Shown: piece after piece, positions 720 through 13,128 of the stretch
Position numbering within the stretch: the first letter of the stretch is position 1
How the letters are laid out: every line of letters begins with the position of its first letter
From: Coprinopsis marcescibilis
Taxonomy: Eukaryota; Basidiomycota; Agaricomycetes; Agaricales; Psathyrellaceae
Assembly (NCBI GenBank): GCA_004369085.1
Contig: ML210300.1
Location: forward strand, 1-64,000
DNA: 64,000 nucleotides
Direction: 5' to 3'
Position numbers and translations under genes: made by a program
The notes under the pieces: generated by a model
The model's input: only the letters and a program-made list of their open reading frames with translations
The model's database searches: none
What the model was told of the DNA's origin: nothing

Positions 720-2374
720 ATGTGCGCCCAAGTCCAAACTTGGATCCCTGAATACCACCCAGGTGACTCAATCATCTCGTCAGTAAGCTGATACGGCATA
801 GTTGCTGGCTTTCCTTTGCTGCTCATCGGGGGTATCTCTAACGATCTGACAGGGTTCTAGGTCCTTCAGGATCCGGAAAGAGCACTGTACGTGCCAGAGT
901 AAATTGTTACTCCATTCATCCTTGGTGATGTTGTGCAATTCACCAAGTTCATAAACAACATCATGGGGGAAGAGGTTGCAACTACTCACGGCGGAGTGGA
1001 ACCATGCACTCACCAAGTTCGTGCCTACATGGTCCCTCCAGAACATCCAACCTACGAAAACGTCTTCAAGAAAAGTGGGGGCAGGATTTTTCTCATTGAT
1101 ACCCCTGGATTTGATTTTGGGGATTTCGGACAACGCCTTCAAGAAATCATGCTGCTTTTGAAATCAGCGTGAGTGTCCTCCCCCTCCGAGCTTCGATTCT
1201 CACCCCATACCTTATCCAGCACCTCGAAAGGTGTGAACATTGTTGGGGTGGCATATATCGTCTCTACGCATGCGAATCAGATGGGCAGGAGAAATCGCTT
1301 GCATTTTGAAGTGTTTTCTTCCGTTTGCGGCGAGGAGTTTCTGAGAAAGGTCGTACTTTGTATCACCAGCGGCGATTCCTCCAACCGATCCAACGCTACA
1401 GAGCTCCGCATACAAGATTTCAACTCCACAATCAGAAAGGAAAGACTCACCAACCATCCGGAATGCGCCAACAGAGTCCTCCAGTACGTCGCGGAAACAG
1501 CAGCCCTCGACTCCGGGGCACCGAAGTGGCTTGGCGACGGTGCCAAAACTACTACGCAGACCCTTATCAGCAAAGTCATGAGCTCCGAATATGGGGTGCC
1601 GGCTCTTGGGCGTCTGTTTGGTGCGCCACGTCAAGTCGACGATTGCACTCTCGTCATGTATGTTTTCTTTGGCTCCAGATTTTAACAGAAAATTCAATTA
1701 TTTCAGCTTGCTTGGACAAACTGGAGTTGGGAAAAGCTCGGTCAGTCCGACCCACTGTCGACTCGCAATAATTCCCACTTCCGTTCTTAGTTTATCAACG
1801 ATCTCCTAGTAGATAGCCGTGCTATTGTAAACCATGCGATAATGCCAACACGTCCTTCTGTTGACCACTTCAAGGTCCCAACTGCGGACAGAAACTCAGT
1901 CTTAACATTCGTAGAATGTCCGGGATTCAATCGAGAAGATATACCGGATTCGAAGATCTCCGATCTCATATGCGACTTTTTTGACACCTCCTCGTGCGTT
2001 CGTCAACACCCCGCAAATATATGTTCAGTTCCTAACAATACTACAGACCCTTCTCTCCGCAGTCAACAGTTCTGGGAATTGTTTATTTGCTTGACACTTG
2101 GGGCCCCTCTGTGGAGAATCCGGGATATAGGATCTTAGGTGATTCCAGGGTGACCTGTGGGAAGGTATTGGGAGTGACGACCTCTCGACCAGATACGCTC
2201 GAGAAAAATCCATTTAAGGAGCACTCTCTGGTCAAGCATATAGTACAGCAGGGAGTACCTATGGAGGAGTATACATATGACTCGCCGAACTATGCATGGA
2301 ATGTCATTGCACCTGTCCTGGGTGGTACATCAATGACCCTTTCAACCTTCTTGCAACTATTTCGGTCAATCTAA
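720..2374 (+). CDS. Tandem two-domain P-loop GTPase (AIG1-like G domains)
   Basis: Two G domains are fused in one spliced gene. Proposed exons: 720-778, 853-886, 948-1168, 1220-about 1656, 1707-1740, 1791-1993, 2047-2374; all joins keep frame. The start MCAQVQTWIPEYHPGDSIIS resembles the start of the neighbouring GTPase at 2784. Domain 1 has P-loop GPSGSGKST, then FINNIMG, then G3 DTPGFDF, then the strand NIVGVAYIV. Domain 2 has P-loop GQTGVGKSS, FINDLLV, an altered G3 (ECPGFN instead of DTPGF) and VLGIVYLLD. The linker runs QVDDCTLVI into the second P-loop. Such proteins are often annotated in Agaricomycetes only as G-domain proteins. Domain 1 should bind GTP; domain 2 may be impaired. The biological role is unknown. 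The 3' end could hold a further exon. Confidence 0.75.
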
Positions 2375-2783
2375 TTATGCATACGCTCTCTACCTCGTGT
2401 GATATCGCAGTTGAGCATGTTTATAGCCCTTCGGCTCAAGGGAACGTGAGGAGGTCGTGGGGGCGGCAGCTACTCTGTGCACGGTACATTTAGAACCAAA
2501 AATTTTGGGATGTGATCAACGTCAGATCAACGATCAATTCTACAACGGGGAGAACGTGCGCATCTGTACACACCTGACCAGACCAAAGCGTAGCAACTCG
2601 CACACCTTTAGTCCGCGTGTCCCAGGCATCAATAGATTTAGACGCCGCCAGTTGATTCGACTCACCGCTAACACGCTACAGGACTGATCTCCCAAGAACG
2701 CCATCCCGAGAACACCAGGTCTCCCATTTTCGCACTTCTTTGCCTGCCTTGCCTTGTATTTCGCGCTTTTACTTGTCTCGTCG
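2375..2783. other. Intergenic, no gene seen
   Basis: About 400 bp lie between the tandem GTPase and the next GTPase start. Only short open frames without recognisable motifs are present. It probably holds a terminator and the promoter of the 2784 gene. Confidence 0.5.
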
Positions 2784-2929
2784 ATGGACTCTACTTCCAA
2801 AGCAATCGAATACCGTGCAGGAGACTATGTTGTTGTGTATGAATCACGTTTGAATCCTGCATGAAACAAAGGCTGACGCAGATCCCAGTGTTATCGGCGC
2901 TAGCGGGACAGGAAAAAGCTCGGTAAGCC

Positions 2930-2940
2930 ACACTCCTTTA
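2930..2940. repeat. Left copy of direct repeat flanking element 1
   Basis: ACACTCCTTTA, identical to 8896-8906. Its core CACTCCT is the likely target-site duplication, since the trailing TTA can also be read as the start of the element end TTAGTCT. Confidence 0.75.
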
Positions 2941-2952
2941 GTCTCCTAAGCA

Positions 2953-3004
2953 GCAGACCTTTGCAACGGATGATAGTCGATCACATTGCTGAATAAAGGT
3001 CTGC
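2953..3004. repeat. Hairpin-forming repeat near left end of element 1
   Basis: GCAGACCTTT (2953-2962) and AAAGGTCTGC (2995-3004) are perfect reverse complements with a 32-nt loop, 15 bp inside the left end of element 1. A transposase binding site or structural end is possible. Confidence 0.55.
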
Positions 3005-3025
3005 CCTCATTCGTGACAGTTTAGG

Positions 3026-3036
3026 GAGGGGGGTCC
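3026..3036. repeat. Subterminal inverted repeat of element 1 (left)
   Basis: GAGGGGGGTCC, the inverse of GGACCCCCCTC at 8856-8866. The surrounding bases also match loosely (TTTAGG/TTTGGT outside, CTTC inside). Confidence 0.5.
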
Positions 3037-3236
3037 GCTTCGGCCTTTCGGACTGAAAATTGCCAGAACTTGAAGCTCTGAACCTGTCATGTGATGTCAT
3101 GTGACACTCAAAATATTCCATATCTTAGTCATTTTACGGCTATTTATTAAGGAGATGTTCGATCGTGCTACATAATGAAGAGAGAATTGTAATAAAAATG
3201 TATTCAGTACTCGCCCTTGAATATACAGTTCACACC

Positions 3237-6200
3237 ATGTCTTTCATTAACTGGAACAGTGGTACAGGTACCCCACGAAGGCAAGGGATATCTCAAAGCT
3301 CATCCTCGCCTAGTAGCTTCCCATCCCCTGCAAGTGATGTCTTCTCCGCCTCCCCGCAAATCCGTCGCCAAACGCCAGAGGAGAAGGTGGATGAAATCCT
3401 CGCCCTGATACAGGCCAAAAACCTGACCATTGGGTCCTTCCAACACTTCCTGTACCGTCGGTACGAGGATAATGGGCAGCTGGTCAAGCGCACCCCAAGA
3501 CACGATTCAATGCTACGAGCCTTCCTGAATGGCAATTCAAAGCCTCATGTTGGGCGAGTGCTAGAAGATATGTGGCACAATGCCTCAGAGACAGTGTTCA
3601 TGCAAACAGACACCACTGTACCTCAAGGGACTTTCTTCAACCCAACAGTCCCGGTGGACAACCTGCTTCACGTTCGCACGGCAATGACAACATGGGCAGT
3701 CAATCTCACTGCTGAGCTGATGAATAATGAGGGTGAGAGGATGATAGACCGAAGAACAGGCTTACATCTTCGAGCACAGGTCAAAGAAGGTGGTAAAGGA
3801 AGCCGAGAGGAGGAAAGGGTTACCTGGGATGAAGTCAGCAAGTTTTCTATGGCGAACCTTGAATCAACGGCTCGATACCAGGCTCCAATAACTTGGAATG
3901 TGCTGTCATCTTATGTTCACAAAGATGATAGTCCATCTCGGCTCCCAGTAGCCTACCAATTGCGTCCCAAGAACCTTGTGTGTGTTTTGACTGCGAGTGG
4001 GTTTGAATCGCACTAAACTCAGTTGATTAGGGCCTTACACAAGCAGTCATGAACCTCACCTTTCTACGATCAAACCGAGCAAACCGTTTCCAGTTGTGCT
4101 GTGGAATTTGGATGTTCGCAGTTATGGCATCCAAGACAATGTTCCGGGTTGAGAGCCGCTTGGGGCTGACAGTTGCAGACTCGACTGTCCGCCGTGCCCT
4201 GGAGAACATGTCAGGGAGTCAGCAACAGCAGTTCAAACAGGCTCATGAAGTTGGCTCAACAACTCACTATTGGGTTGTCAGTGACAATGTGCAAGCATAT
4301 GCCAAAAAACGCGATCATCGAATGGGTCGCCCAAGCGAGATGGTCCATGGGATGGCTGCCACGGCTATCGAGATGGAGGGGGTTGCCCCAAATGCGTTCG
4401 ACTTGAAGGATCTTTTGAACCGGCAAGCTGGAAAGGAGCGAAAGAAGTTAACGGTTGACCTGATTATGGACGACATCGACTGGGCTCACCTCGACCATGT
4501 ATCAACCTTCCAATTCGTTCAAACCCTTGTCAACTTTGTCCCTTGCCTACAGGTCTACCGTCCTCAACTACACGAGTTTACGGCGACCAAGCTTTGCAGG
4601 GTTGCTCGCCCCACAGGCTACCGGTCCAAGGTTCACCCCCTGGCAACCAACAGTTCCAACGAAATCAAGGTACAGGAGCTGAAAGACGCTATCATCGACT
4701 TTGCAACGCAGCTTGGGATTGACAACGATACCATCAACAACAAATGTTGGCCATTCTCGGGGGATGGCAAAACCTTCCAAGAGCTCCACCGAATTCGCAA
4801 GTATTCATCGGCGGAGCCAGAAGACTTTGATTCGTTCCGGTGGATGATACCTATGCTGGAGATCTGGCATACAAAGTGGACTGACATGAGCAGGATTGTC
4901 CGGGCACACTGGGGATCACTCACCGATTCCTCATCACTTTTGTACCTTGCCAAACTTGCAGAATGCCCCACACCGCCGAAGTTGAACAAAGTTGACTTTT
5001 ACGATGGCCAACACATGATCAACTTGGCCCTTGATGCTCGTATTCTCAACTGCTGGGAGTAAGCCTGTTTCGCTTTTTCCGAAAGATTAGTGTCTGAAAC
5101 TCCTGATAGGCAACACTTTGAGACAACAGACCTAGTAAAACATTTCGAACAAGCGGCAAACATTCCCAAATTCGAAGAATTAACAGCGGGTGCATTGAAG
5201 CTTGCATTGGCTCATGCCACGACAAGGGCTCACCAAAACGCTCTGAATCCAGAGGGTTTAGCGAATGGTCCAGGCTTCCCCATTGGTCAACCATGGCCTG
5301 AAAAGCCAGCTGAAGATTCGTTAGCTCAAGAACCAGAACCACCGATAAAATCAGATACAGTACCTCTGCCGTTCCCCAAAGAGCAGTCCAAAGGCGACAC
5401 ATCCTTGGCAAACGGGGCCCTCTTCATGCGAGATGCCATTTGGTGGCGTGAAGTCTGTCTTGCCGTTGCCGAAGGGGACACAGGTCGGGTGCTCGAGATG
5501 TTCAAGGTCAGCTGAATTATGAATCTGGCATTGAGAAAGGACTTACCTGAAGTCAGTTGTGGATATTCACATTTAGTGGAAGCGGAAACCCACTATACTC
5601 GTCATATCTCCTCGAGATCTACTGTAACTTCAAGTGGGAGTTTTCGCCAGCACTGAAGGAGGCATTGCTGATGTATTGGCTGGTCAACTTGAGTGGCTTG
5701 CCAGGGTGCTTCATCGAGCTCGACTTGATGCAAGAGCACTTCAATTTCTGGCTTGAAGAAATGGTTCAGCACAAAGGGAAAGAGTTTAATGACTCCTTCT
5801 ACCGACGAGTGGTCTCGATGAATGTCCATCGATTCCTACTTCTCAAGGATGAGATGGAACAGGCAGTACTTCTCAAAGCTCGGACCAAAAATCATTCAGA
5901 TCCACACCTCGACAACGAGCTTAACATGCTCTTGAAACATTTGCGCAGAGAAGAACTAAATAAATTCCGAGCAGGACGCACCGAGGGATTCCAAGCCAAA
6001 GATAACTTCTCTGATGGGTTAAACACTCTCGAGGCGGGGAAGTTGAAAGGGTTCATAAAAAGGTTGCTGGTATATTCAGATCGCTTGAGGGCACATGGGT
6101 ACGGGGACGGGCAAAACTCTATCGAGGAAGAGGATTTTGAGGATGACCTACCCGATGACGAGGAGTTAGAAATCAACAGAGAAGAAGAAGACACAACTGA

Positions 6201-6267
6201 TTCACCTTGTGTTCGAATGGTTGCGGTAGACGGAGAGCTCTATGTTGCACCATACTGTAAGTGCTGA
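3237..6267 (+). CDS. DUF6589-domain protein of element 1
   Basis: Proposed exons 3237-3981, 4047-5058, 5110-5506 and 5557-6267 join in frame, giving a protein of roughly 950 residues. I recognise the DUF6589 family of basidiomycetes from family-like stretches: EKVDEILALIQAKNLTIGSF near the N-terminus, SDNVQAYAKKRDHRMGR and LEIWHTKWTDMSRIVRAHWG in the middle, and LWIFTFSGSGNPLYSSYLL and LMQEHFNFWLEEMVQ toward the end. The tail is acidic (EEEDFEDDLPDDEE). The family's biochemical function is not established to my knowledge. Its position inside a mobile element with a helicase suggests the recombinase or transposase (inference). An in-frame ATG at 3198 could extend the N-terminus, and the last codons could be altered by one more intron at 6257. 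Confidence 0.85.
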
Positions 6268-6287
6268 AGCCATTCAGTGACGAGCAT

Positions 6288-8686
6288 TCAACTCACAATC
6301 TTTTGCCGCTTTGCGGACACTTCAGAACCTGTCATATTCTCCTTGTTGGCACCTCTGTGCCTCTTTGGCTGTGGTAGCGACTTCGTGAGGGCAGTAGCAA
6401 GGCAGGGAGGATCATCGTGGTCATCGTCTTCTAGTACATCAGGTATGGGAGCTTGCACCTGTGCTGGAAGTCGGATGACGAGCTTCTTGCTGGCTTGCTT
6501 AATTGCTACAGAAAGTATAAAATGAATAGAAGGACCACAGATGTTGAATAGAACAATACCTTTATTGTGTGCCTGTGTTGCCGCCATCTTGGCATTCTTG
6601 TCAAGTCGGACCTGGTTAAGCCATCCGTCGTACACCTGGATAAGTTGGCACAGGTGCTGGTATAGTGCGGGTCCATCGTCTTGAAGATAGGCCCAGCCAC
6701 GCAAGGTGTCTTCCATGACCGTGTATGAAACGAAATAGACGAAGTTGTCGGTGATGGTCGAGAGGCAGATTCCTTTCCAAAAGCGTTGCACAGGGCCGTG
6801 ACGAGCCTCCGCCGTTGTCTTTGCTTGCCATCTTTGCCGTGCGAAGTCATTGAGCCATTCGACGAGATTTGAGACATATTTCTTTGGAATAGACGGGGGA
6901 AGGACAGTCGGCCGAGGATCTTGTCGTGGTGCAGGTGGCAAAGGAAGGGATGTGAGTTCTTCGCCCAGACTAGCTTGGTTGGTATCAATTGCTGGTGTGG
7001 GAACGTTGGGAGAAGGCGGTGATTCGGGAACATCACCGGCGGTGACAGATAGCAACCATGACCATGCAGGACTACAACTGCTGCAAAGCAATCGATGTTC
7101 CATCTCTGCACAAGAACGGGCTCCATCCGTGTTAGGGTCACCAAGCACTCGGTTCTTGTCGCGCTCCAGGCACAGGTGAAGAAGATGGCTTATGAGTATG
7201 GTCCTGAGGTTTTGCTCCACCATTGCCCCTTGACCAACTTTCCCTTTGCCCTTGGGATGTCCGGCACTCCCGAGCAGGACTAGCTTTTGATAGATGTCAT
7301 CTGCAGCCTTCCGTGAAAGTCCCAGGTCATCCGCCTCTTCGCCACTTTCGGCCGTCCTGGTTTCGTCGTCTCGTTTGTCGCTGGTGTCGTCCACTTCACC
7401 ACAGTCATCGGCCCTTGGTAGAACCTGTCTGACCGGAAGCAAGGGCTGGATCTCTAAATTGAGGCTGTTGAGAGTCGATACCGGCACGTAGGTGATTCCC
7501 ATCGAGTCAATTCCACCATCTCTCCCACAATGTCCGTTCTGCTGAACAAGGGCTTCCATTGATTCCGGAAGGCCTAAGTTGATCGAATACTGGATGTTCT
7601 TGAGGTTCATTCCCATGCCGAATGCGACCGTGGCGACAATGACCGAGGTTTGCAGGTTGTTTGCAAAAAGCGAGAGTGACTGTTGGTTGTAGCCGCCGGA
7701 CGTGATGCTGCTCCACACGCGGACGGAGTCGTACTGTTTCGCAAGTGGGTATTGGCTCCAGCCATATAAGGCAACCCTCCACACCAGATCGAGGCTGGCG
7801 CAGAAGACAACGGCCTTGATTCCTGGCCGAAACAACCATGAGATATCGGGGAATTGCGTTGCAGTTGTAAGTGTATGCGTGAGCTTTGAAATCACTGTGC
7901 GAATGTTGGGGCGCTGGACAGAGAGTCGAATCGTTTCGAAGTGGCCAGAGCGCAAGTCGAGCTCTTTGCAGAGAGACGTCATGCCCTCACTCGAGAGGGT
8001 GGCTGTAACAGCCACAAACGCGCAACGATCTGGTAGGCGCCGGCGCAGAAGGGCCATCTGGCGATAAGCCGTTCGGAAGTCCTGCGACCATGGTACCAGT
8101 ACGTGGGCTTCATCAATTCCGAGCAGGATGAGGTTGTTGCGAAATGTTTCGTCCTTGAGGATGGTGTCCAACGACTTCGAAGTTAGCCTTTCAGCAGATA
8201 TGAATACCATTGAATATTCGCAACGCCGAATGCTTTCGAATATATTGTTGCCTTTCTCAGATTCGGTCTTGATTGTTTGCGCATTTACGGATACAGCCTT
8301 TATCCCAAAGGCTTCCATCTCTTTGGCCTATGCCATTGTTTGAGCGTGACTTTGGTATAGTAATACGCAATACTCACATGGTTGTTCCCCAACTCAATCA
8401 GAGGTGTGACCACTAGCACCACTGGCTTCTCTGGGATTTTGGTCGGGATCTCTGGATGGGGGTTCCTGTAAAGATATTGGTAGACGAGTAGTAAACAGAA
8501 AAAGACTGCCGTTTTGCCAGAAGACGTCGAGGCTACCAGGACAAGTGGTCTGTTGTCAAGAAGGGTGGTAGTTGCATCGAGTTGAAAAGGGCGGGGTCCT
8601 GAACTCCATTGGGGGATACGGGCCTCCAAGATTCCTCTGACTAGCGCGCGGTTGGTTGGTTCAAGCCACGAAAACGAGTTGGTCAT
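6288..8686 (-). CDS. RecQ-like DEAH-box helicase of element 1
   Basis: Exons 8378-8686, 6560-8327 and 6288-6505 join in frame; the second intron is 54 nt. Motif I is ASTSSGKTA, motif II GIDEAH, motif III VTATL. Helicase domain 2 includes TSVIVATVAFGMGMNLKN and ends in LVQQNGHCGRDG. The usual RecQ motif VI is QxxGRxGRDG; here the first Arg is His. The N-terminal half is a superfamily 2 core. The C-terminal half (from about residue 430) is not recognisable and includes a proline-rich linker and a basic tail with KRQK. The product probably unwinds DNA for movement or repair of element 1. Its stop lies 20 bp from the DUF6589 stop, so the pair is convergent. Confidence 0.85.
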
Positions 8687-8855
8687 AGAAGAACGATGAT
8701 ATTTGGTATTACATGGTTGGATTCGTCGTTGTAGTACACTCTACGCCATACCCGATCGTTGAATTAGCTTGGGCGCATTGGACAACACGTGTCCCTATCA
8801 CCTGACTTTTTCGGATTCTTCGGTGCTGTCGACCACTTCCTAATTAGGTGAAGAT

Positions 8856-8866
8856 GGACCCCCCTC
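8856..8866. repeat. Subterminal inverted repeat of element 1 (right)
   Basis: GGACCCCCCTC, the reverse complement of 3026-3036, lies 30 bp inside the right end of element 1 (88 bp inside on the left). Confidence 0.5.
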
Positions 8867-8895
8867 ACCAAAGGCCGGCAAATGAATCTAGACTA

Positions 8896-8906
8896 ACACT
8901 CCTTTA
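8896..8906. repeat. Right copy of direct repeat flanking element 1
   Basis: ACACTCCTTTA, identical to 2930-2940. It lies within the 3' part of the interrupted intron, 37 nt before the acceptor at 8942-8943. Confidence 0.75.
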
Positions 8907-9407
8907 CTTTTCTGGGAAATTTTGAACGACATTCATTGGTAAGTTCATCAACAACGCCCTAGGACATGAACTCGCTGCCGTTGCACATGGGTTGAGCCCC
9001 TGTACTCGCCAAATCAATGTGTATCTGGTCCCTCAAGAGCTGTATGGACAGTTCGGACTGGAGGGACAAATAGATCCGACACGCCGAATAATACTCGTTG
9101 ACACTCCTGGTGCCGAATTTGAACAATTTGGCGTTGCTGGAAAGACAGCGGAGTTCTTAGCAGCAGCGTCAGTCTCGTCATTCTCTCCGACGGTGGTGAA
9201 GCTGAGCTTTATGTGGTCTTTGTTTTTCCAGGGTGGCACGCGGCGCTGCTATTGCGGGTGTGCTTTACACGCTGTCTTCCTCGCGATTGGGAGCAAACGA
9301 CGACTCCAATTTGAGGAGCTTTCTAAAGATCTGCAAAAAAACGAGCCTGCAGAACATCGTTTTCTGCCTTATAAACAATGACTGCTGCAACAATCAAGTC
9401 ATGTCTC

Positions 9408-11195: not shown

Positions 11196-13128
11196 ATGTC
11201 CAGAGAACTTATATGTTTTCCAGAACTTCCAGACCCTCAACATGGTGCCCAATGGACAACTGCCATTCTGTCCGCATACACTACTCTTCGCCAGCAGTTT
11301 CAGCATGCATCGTTGCTTCTGCAACAGGGCACAGCCGATCCTGTTCGCATGCGCCTTCAACTTACCAATATCACCGAGAAGTCAATTCCACTCCTTCGAG
11401 CACTAGAAGCGCAGCTCCCTGGGGAGAAATGGGTACTAGATTGTACCAAGCAGCTAATGCAGACAGCCATGGCGCTTTGCAATGCTACCAGTGCTGCAGA
11501 GGGAATGTGAGTAATCTATTACAGCCTACAGGCTCTTGCTAACATGACCCCCCAGTGAACGTGAGGTGGTCGTGCCCCCTGTCACGGTGGCTAACGTGCA
11601 CACTGGCCGCCGGGGCCGCCCCAGAAAGGCGTTAGATCTTCAACTGATTCGGAACGCCATGTCAGCTCATCGCAAGATCCCGATCAGCGTACTTGCCAGG
11701 ATTCTTGGCATCCACCGACAGACCTTGCGCACCTACATGCACAAGAATGGAATAAAGCACGGATTCTCAGTCATTGGGGACAGTGAAATTGATGCTTTAA
11801 TGCGTGATTACAAGTGTGCTCACCCTAAGTCAGGGATCCGTTATGCAGTTGGATGGTTTAGGCAGCGGTCTATTCATATACCTAAACGGCGCATCGTGTC
11901 TTCTCTCAGGAGGACAGATGGTGTTGGCCAGGTTCTCCGACGACATGGAACTATTATCCGCCGGGAATATCAAGTTTTGCGGCCCAACGCCTTGTGGCAT
12001 TTGGATGGGCATCACAAGCTGATCAAGTGGGGATTCGTTATCCATGGAATTGTAGATGGGTTTTCGCGACTGGTACGATACACTCAAACTCCCAATTTTT
12101 AAAGGCCCTTACCAACGTCTAACTCTTGAGGCTGTTGGCATGCGTGCAAGCACCAACAATCTCTCCTCTACAGTTCTAAAGCTCTTCTTGGATGCCACTA
12201 GTGCCCACGGCTTTCCTTCTCGCATGCGTGGCGATTGGGGAAGCGAGAACACGGAGGTATCTGTTTGCATGATCATATTTCGGGGACCGAGCCAGGGATC
12301 ATTTATTTGGGGGACGTGAGTTAGCCCTCTACTTTACCCGTGCCCCACAACATCTGAAGAACTTCCGTACGTAGTTCAACCCGTAACACGCGGGTAGAGC
12401 GCATCTGGGTAGAAGTGGGGACACAGTTTGCTCGGCAATGGCGGGCATTCTTTACGAGGCTTGAACGTTTACACTGTCTGAACACGGGCGCTAAAGGACA
12501 CCTTTGGCTTCTGCATCGTTTGTTTCTAGGTGATATCAACAATGATTGCAAGTCCTTTGAACAGAGTTGGAATCATCACCCACTTTCACGATTGGGACAT
12601 GAACAAACACCGTCGGTATGTCTGCCGTCTCTCGTTAGTATCATCAATGATCATTGAAAATCAACTGCTTGGTTGTAGGACATGCATTTTCTTGGTCAGC
12701 TCCAGCACGGGAAGTATCCCAACATTGATGGCGTACACCCCGAAGCAAAGGCTATGTATTTGGCTGATGTGGAAGGGGATCTCACGGACGAAGAGCTCAA
12801 TAATGCGCTGTACTCACGCATCGCCGCTGCATTGGAATGCCAGGTCCACCATCAAAATGATACAGTCAACAACCAGAACCACCCATTCGATTCAGATCAG
12901 GACCTTCAACTCTCCTATAGTGTGCTAGCCAAGGTACAACAGGATGGTATCATTCCATGTGGCTATGATCTATTGGAAGAAGAATGGCCTGAGGATGGGT
13001 ATCCTGTGGTTGAGTCAGTTAAAGTTGCTCGAAAACAAGTTGATATCACTTTACTGTTTGAGATCTGGTTCAGGCGTGCAGCATTGTGGGTCCAAGGACT
13101 TCATTCCATGTCAACAATTCTGTACTAG
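11196..13128 (+). CDS. Integrase-core (DDE) transposase of element 2
   Basis: Exons 11196-11506, 11556-12072, 12131-12315, 12375-12615 and 12679-13128 join in frame. A helical N-terminal region is followed by GRRGRPRKALD and a helix-turn-helix-like stretch (VLARILGIHRQTLRTYMHKN). The catalytic core follows: LWHLDGHHKLIKWGFVIHG (first Asp), GFPSRMRGDWGSENTEV (second Asp) and NTRVERIWVEV (Glu). This is the pattern of fungal and animal integrase-core proteins related to retroviral integrase and IS3-type enzymes. The tail carries DMHFLGQLQHGKYP. No stop or frameshift interrupts the reading, so an active enzyme is plausible. The exact superfamily (for example IS3EU or Ginger) needs a search. Confidence 0.85.

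Follow-up and report, generated by a model that had tools for sequence, protein, structure and literature searches.

Target-site duplications of 8 to 9 bp are usual for Mutator-like and hAT elements; hAT elements make 8-bp duplications and are not known to carry a helicase. MuDR elements, together with IS256, are described as generating duplications of 4 to 10 bp and Kolobok elements a 4-bp TTAA duplication with 5'-RR...YY-3' ends, and a C/DxxH motif between the second D and the last E is described as a signature of Kolobok, hAT, P, MuDR, and Dada. The name AcademH was reportedly introduced by Kojima in 2020 (Mob DNA 11:15) within the Academ superfamily. According to the published descriptions, AcademH elements encode a helicase and generate 9- or 10-bp duplications (PMC10045372) and are present at low copy number in Basidiomycota, Ascomycota, and Mucoromycota (PMC10799480), and KolobokH is a fungal DDE (Asp-Asp-Glu) transposon with a RecQ helicase (PMC9587614). 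Here, we analyzed a stretch of 64,000 nucleotides (hereafter, the window) from the mushroom-forming fungus Coprinopsis marcescibilis (contig ML210300.1, positions 1 to 64,000; contig C155 of the 36.3-Mb assembly), in which a 5,957-bp element (2939..8895, forward strand) carrying a DUF6589 gene and a RecQ-like helicase gene interrupts an intron of a GTPase-like gene. We conclude that it is a structurally complete helicase-carrying DDE DNA transposon and, with good probability, an AcademH element, an assignment made from described features. A sequence-only reading of the window had not recognized the combination of DUF6589 and a RecQ-like helicase as a defined transposon superfamily; both genes were indeed found inside the unit, by Pfam and by sequence matches, respectively, but helicase-carrying DDE transposons have already been named, so the element most likely belongs to AcademH rather than to a new superfamily.

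The element has near base-exact borders, as the sequence-only reading had proposed. The P-loop exon of the host gene ends at 2922 (terminal part, GASGTGKSS, 2889..2922, forward strand; sequence and P-loop scan), and the downstream exon, which begins with FIN, starts at 8944 (open to 9381, forward strand; open reading frame 8926-9381 and sibling genes), a split that the sequence-only reading had correctly described. Between the two exons lie, all on the forward strand unless indicated, the 5' remainder of the intron (GTAAGCC, 2923..2929), the left copy of a 9-bp target-site duplication, ACACTCCTT (2930..2938), the element with its terminal inverted repeats TAGTCT (2939..2944) and AGACTA (8890..8895, reverse strand), identified by an end scan and by alignment of the left and right ends, the exact right copy of ACACTCCTT (8896..8904), and the 3' remainder of the intron (8905..8943). 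The duplication and the inverted repeat had previously been given as 7 to 8 bp and 7 bp, respectively; both exist, with lengths of 9 and 6 bp. Excision with retention of one duplication copy leaves a GT-AG intron of 55 nt (hand count), as had been claimed, and in two sibling genes, whose P-loops lie at 860 and 1714, the intron at this codon position measures 61 and 50 nt. The region 860-9400 holds three consecutive GTPase-like P-loop genes, two with the P-loop/FIN intron and the third split by the element. The label “GTPase,” taken over from the sequence-only reading, is based on the P-loop and DTPG motifs, and a Pfam scan of the gene returned no significant match. The host gene may still be spliced, as the element landed in an intron.

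Because 11 bases are common to both junctions, the 9-bp reading needs outside evidence, which is provided by other genomic copies of the left end: the base preceding TAGTCT is a T in only 3 of 11 such pieces (window included), and the others start at TAGTCT after varied bases, indicating that the duplication is 9 bp and not longer. The combination of an exact 9-bp repeat with a 6-bp inverted end occurred once at the real place and in none of 3,000 random draws (5.45-kb core from the window, 1-kb flanks on each side, draws with the real pair skipped). A scan requiring 13 of 20 inverted bases gave no match for the window. An assembly artefact or a gene fusion instead of an insertion would accord with the element being single copy and with a search of the assembly using the joined flanks (an empty allele with one ACACTCCTT copy would read GTAAGCCACACTCCTTTACTTTTC), which matched only the two halves of the site itself and revealed no empty allele; the duplication with inverted ends, the intron restored to sibling length, and the empty sites of two relatives make such an explanation barely credible.

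A search of the assembly with DUF6589 yielded 22 matches on 10 contigs (designated by C numbers), and a scan for direct duplications paired with inverted ends detected clear ends on 5 of these: the duplication is an exact 9 bp on three, counting the window, and 8 bp in one lineage. The C272 element (5,830 bp) has the duplication AAGTATGAG (9/9) and a perfect 27-bp inverted end, and the C140 element (5,544 bp) has the duplication CTTCGTGTT (9/9) and inverted ends matching at 18/20 positions. The elements on C282 (2,942 bp; duplication 8/8) and C15 (7,189 bp; duplication 7/8) share the end TTGTCTCG. Short relatives without a DUF6589 match were found on C105 (1,202 bp, 9/9), C65 (2,873 bp, 9/9), C436 (160 bp, 9/9), and C427 (1,035 bp, 8/9), the latter two with the same kind of ends as C140. 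Ends of the types CAGnCT, TAGTCT, or TTGTCT and duplications of 8 to 9 bp are found within this one genome. For C89, C289, and C25, which have the same left end, the right end was not found within the downstream stretch examined.

The C272 and C140 elements are inserted in repeats of which many copies are unoccupied. When the two flanks of each element are joined around a single duplication copy, the sequence matches across the junction at 34 of the 40 (C272) and 35 of the 38 (C140) best places listed, the others listed being partial matches or the two halves at the element itself. In all six empty places aligned base by base (five for C272 and one for C140), the junction is free of gaps; therefore, the 9-bp duplications and the ends of both elements are exact. 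An empty site, the check proposed in the sequence-only reading, was thus obtained for these two relatives and not, in this assembly, for the window site. The host repeat family of the C272 element (C272:7609-14523) has more than 30 listed copies of 85% to 97% identity, with a second inverted copy at 7609-7770. A wider inverted repeat and an AT-rich 10-bp direct repeat surround the C140 element (C140:31256-39175), which probably jumped into another transposon. Wider pairs around C140 and C272 were not accepted as ends and were read as parts of surrounding repeats; an 8+8-bp pair on C323 and a 10+5-bp pair on C407 were likewise rejected. The ends on C174 were not accepted on account of a large palindrome: the DUF6589 copy at C174:1321-4092 is part of this almost perfect palindrome close to the contig start, which is either a fold-back of the assembly or a genuine inverted duplication. 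C257:34375-34488 holds a solo terminal repeat of the C272 family, with no partner end within the 2.8 kb examined.

The DUF6589 gene (3237-6267, forward strand) has four exons in the splice model (3237..3977, 4031..5058, 5110..5506, and 5557..6267, the last with the stop codon and also seen as an open reading frame) and encodes an uninterrupted protein of 958 aa. A public C. marcescibilis protein, P0001 (960 aa), is 100% identical to it and differs from the splice model by two extra residues at the exon 1 border. Pfam assigned DUF6589 across exons 2 to 4 and nothing to exon 1; over the catalytic part, it was the only match at E ≤ 1 besides one weak match to DUF1955. Three residues conserved among the homologues, D334 and D494 in exon 2 and E784 in exon 4, form the proposed catalytic triad. 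The predicted fold was matched by VIA-align to the DDE transposases Hermes, RAG1, and P element, the best being an hAT transposase; Foldseek matches were not significant. The conserved residues and model matches support the prediction that DUF6589 is a DDE transposase with an RNase H fold, in which a large helical insert separates the second D from the E. A profile search of the PDB with DUF6589 gave four matches, all weak (E 0.13-0.91), and a viral Foldseek search gave none at E ≤ 0.001. The C/DxxH signature was not found in DUF6589 (no column pair shows it in more than 12 of 148 homologues), positions 526-529 reading GxxH or ExxH instead (G in 119 and E in 25 of 148). The DUF6589 alignment matched 551 proteins at E ≤ 1e-6; among the 120 listed, nearly all are called “hypothetical protein” and come mainly from mushroom-forming genera (lineages judged from genus names). 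Literature searches by name found no mention of “DUF6589” and only unrelated use of “PF20231.”

Could the DUF6589-RecQ elements form a separate superfamily with an hAT/RAG-like DDE layout and an independently recruited RecQ-like helicase? The GxxH or ExxH motif, the lack of a sequence link to a named superfamily, with Pfam giving DUF6589 only over the catalytic part, and the coexistence of three end types and 8- to 9-bp duplications in one genome speak for this. AcademH, as described, fits closely in each checkable feature (helicase, 9- to 10-bp duplication, low copy number in Basidiomycota), and we therefore consider a separate superfamily unlikely, yet the strongest of the alternatives.

The helicase gene (8686-6288, reverse strand) is convergent with the DUF6589 gene and encodes an uninterrupted 782-aa protein in two exons, the first (8378..8686) with the Walker A motif ASTSSGKT within the DEAD domain and the second (6288..8327) with DEAH, Helicase_C, and the stop codon. 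A public model, P0029 (676 aa), covers 65% of the 782-aa model at 92% identity. Pfam detected DEAD and Helicase_C, the best PDB match is RecQ (3e-24), and RecQ proteins are the best sequence matches. The motif VI region reads QQNGHCGRDG, with H at the position of the first R usual in RecQ proteins. On 6 of the 9 other contigs, DUF6589 has a helicase match nearby, in convergent orientation on 5 and in back-to-back orientation on C336, and ends and duplications comparable to those of the window accompany several of these pairs. Homologue searches (cut-offs of 1e-3 for the transposase and 1e-20 for the helicase) recovered 28 transposase and 29 helicase proteins, and six same-species pairs besides the window were on contigs of identical size, read as one contig, in Ephemerocybe angulata, C. 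cinerea, Coprinopsis sp., Flammula alnicola, Crassisporium funariophilum, and Hygrophoropsis aurantiaca. Linkage in these species is judged from contig size, and it is loose on two of the contigs, which exceed 3 Mb.

A Mutator-like or hAT element with a chance helicase neighbor would be in keeping with the 8- to 9-bp duplications usual for both and with an hAT transposase being the best fold match, but no MULE or hAT domain was found by Pfam at E ≤ 1, C/DxxH is absent, and the helicase gene is enclosed by the duplication copies and is found again near DUF6589 elsewhere in this genome and, judging from equal-size contigs, in others, rendering the idea very improbable. A KolobokH element, from the RecQ-carrying Kolobok lineage of fungi, would match in helicase type and in host; here, however, the helicase is a convergent gene, C/DxxH is absent from the 148 DUF6589 homologues, and the 9-bp ACACTCCTT duplication and TAGTCT...AGACTA ends (TA...TA) contradict the TTAA duplication and RR...YY ends, so that we give this origin hardly any credence.

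Several observations weigh against the AcademH assignment or the element as delimited here. The fit rests on described features of AcademH, and the C15/C282 lineage makes 8-bp duplications, outside the 9 to 10 bp of AcademH. The VIA-align matches of the DUF6589 model show high root-mean-square deviations, and the Foldseek search had no match at E ≤ 0.001, Hermes being the best at 0.055. The inverted ends in the window span only 6 bp, versus at least 18/20 in four relatives; with flanks extended to 7 kb, C407 gives a 10+5-bp pair with a summed length equal to the 9+6 of the window; and no acceptable ends were found on 5 of the 10 DUF6589 contigs (C336, C205, C174, C407, and C323). The partnership with the helicase is incomplete: 21 of the 27 non-window transposase homologues have no helicase, among the 29 recovered, on an equal-size contig, and helicase matches occur on C430 and C257 without a DUF6589 match on the contig. 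No movement of the element has been observed.

The first 60 bp of the left end (2939..2998, forward strand) recur wholly or partly as one-ended copies, the first 18 to 60 bp being found at 7 to 11 other genomic places depending on the search. These copies (18-70 bp) are located on C121, C189, C260, C10, C12 (two), C22, and C439, and perhaps on C88, C399, and C265; they align from the terminal base, a few with single changes in TAGTCT, and lose similarity at varied depths. Reversed patterns used as controls produced 5 and 4 matches in two left-end searches, and the weakest pieces, such as the 3-mismatch L053 and L054, may therefore be chance. No acceptable window-type right end was found within 1.5 kb downstream of the pieces. 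The form ending in AATAAAG is kept in three besides the window (60 bp on C121 and C260; 70 bp, with a longer loop, on C189), and this boundary falls within an arm of a predicted subterminal hairpin (2953..3004, forward strand; single-stranded DNA fold −12.8 kcal/mol, z −3.7, none of 200 shuffles as good); Rfam gave nothing at E ≤ 1 for 2850-3100. A repeat of the outer 9-bp flank lies right at the AATAAAG boundary on C189 (8/9, p = 0.006) and C121 (7/9, p = 0.083) and at another boundary on C10 (7/9, p = 0.065), with p of at least 0.4 for the other 8 of the 11 pieces (window included; free search over positions, uncorrected for the number of pieces).

Beyond its first 60 bp, the left end can be aligned with the right end when shifted by approximately 58 bp (local score 19.5; none of 500 mononucleotide shuffles exceeded 14.5), which, with the recurrence of the first 60 bp elsewhere, is compatible with a nested insertion. 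However, no duplication flanks the nested piece, and the piece and adjoining bases form a single predicted hairpin; an asymmetric left end is therefore equally likely. The one-ended pieces may represent very small non-autonomous elements, abortive insertions of a single end, or remnants. A more far-reaching proposal, which we hold to be rather doubtful and somewhat less likely than a separate superfamily as such, is that the DUF6589-RecQ elements are a superfamily in its own right, made up of DDE transposons that depend on a helicase. Their helicase-assisted reaction would at times join just one of the two ends and so produce solo ends of approximately 18 to 70 bp, often stopping at the subterminal hairpin and some with a 9-bp duplication.

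For the probable AcademH element, transposase subunits would bind the element termini, release them, and link them to target DNA at points 9 bp apart on the two strands, after which repair would produce the duplication; the RecQ-like helicase could unwind or displace strands at the ends or assist gap repair, and the donor copy would be either cut out or copied. The results suggest a function for a large unnamed family of DUF6589 proteins, and an uninterrupted element with near base-exact ends, together with relatives having many empty sites, offers material for testing the role of RecQ in DDE transposition. Near the element, an open reading frame at 11548-12102 (forward strand) matches the integrase core in Pfam (rva_4, E 2e-16) and, weakly, helix-turn-helix domains and represents a second mobile-element-like or domesticated integrase gene.

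KDZ and Plavaka transposons reside in Agaricomycetes, the same kind of host as that of the window element; the difference is that Pfam gave DUF6589 alone over the catalytic part. With hAT (Hermes) and RAG1/Transib, DUF6589 shares the predicted RNase H core and the large helical insert before the last E, but no sequence match was found and the C/DxxH of hAT is absent; hAT, P, MuDR, and Dada also lack a Pfam match to the transposase at E ≤ 1. KolobokH, as described, resembles the element in combining a RecQ helicase with a fungal DDE transposon. AcademH differs from the DUF6589 elements of C. marcescibilis in that one lineage of this genome makes 8-bp duplications, and resembles them in the pairing of a transposase, here with a putative DDD/E domain (VIA-align matches and conserved D334, D494, and E784), with a helicase encoded inside the element borders, in the low copy number in Basidiomycota, and in the duplication length, which is 9/9 in the window, C272, C140, C105, C65, and C436 and is corroborated by empty sites. 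AcademH is the best fit because the helicase and the 9-bp duplication agree with it, whereas the TTAA and C/DxxH of KolobokH do not agree with the element.
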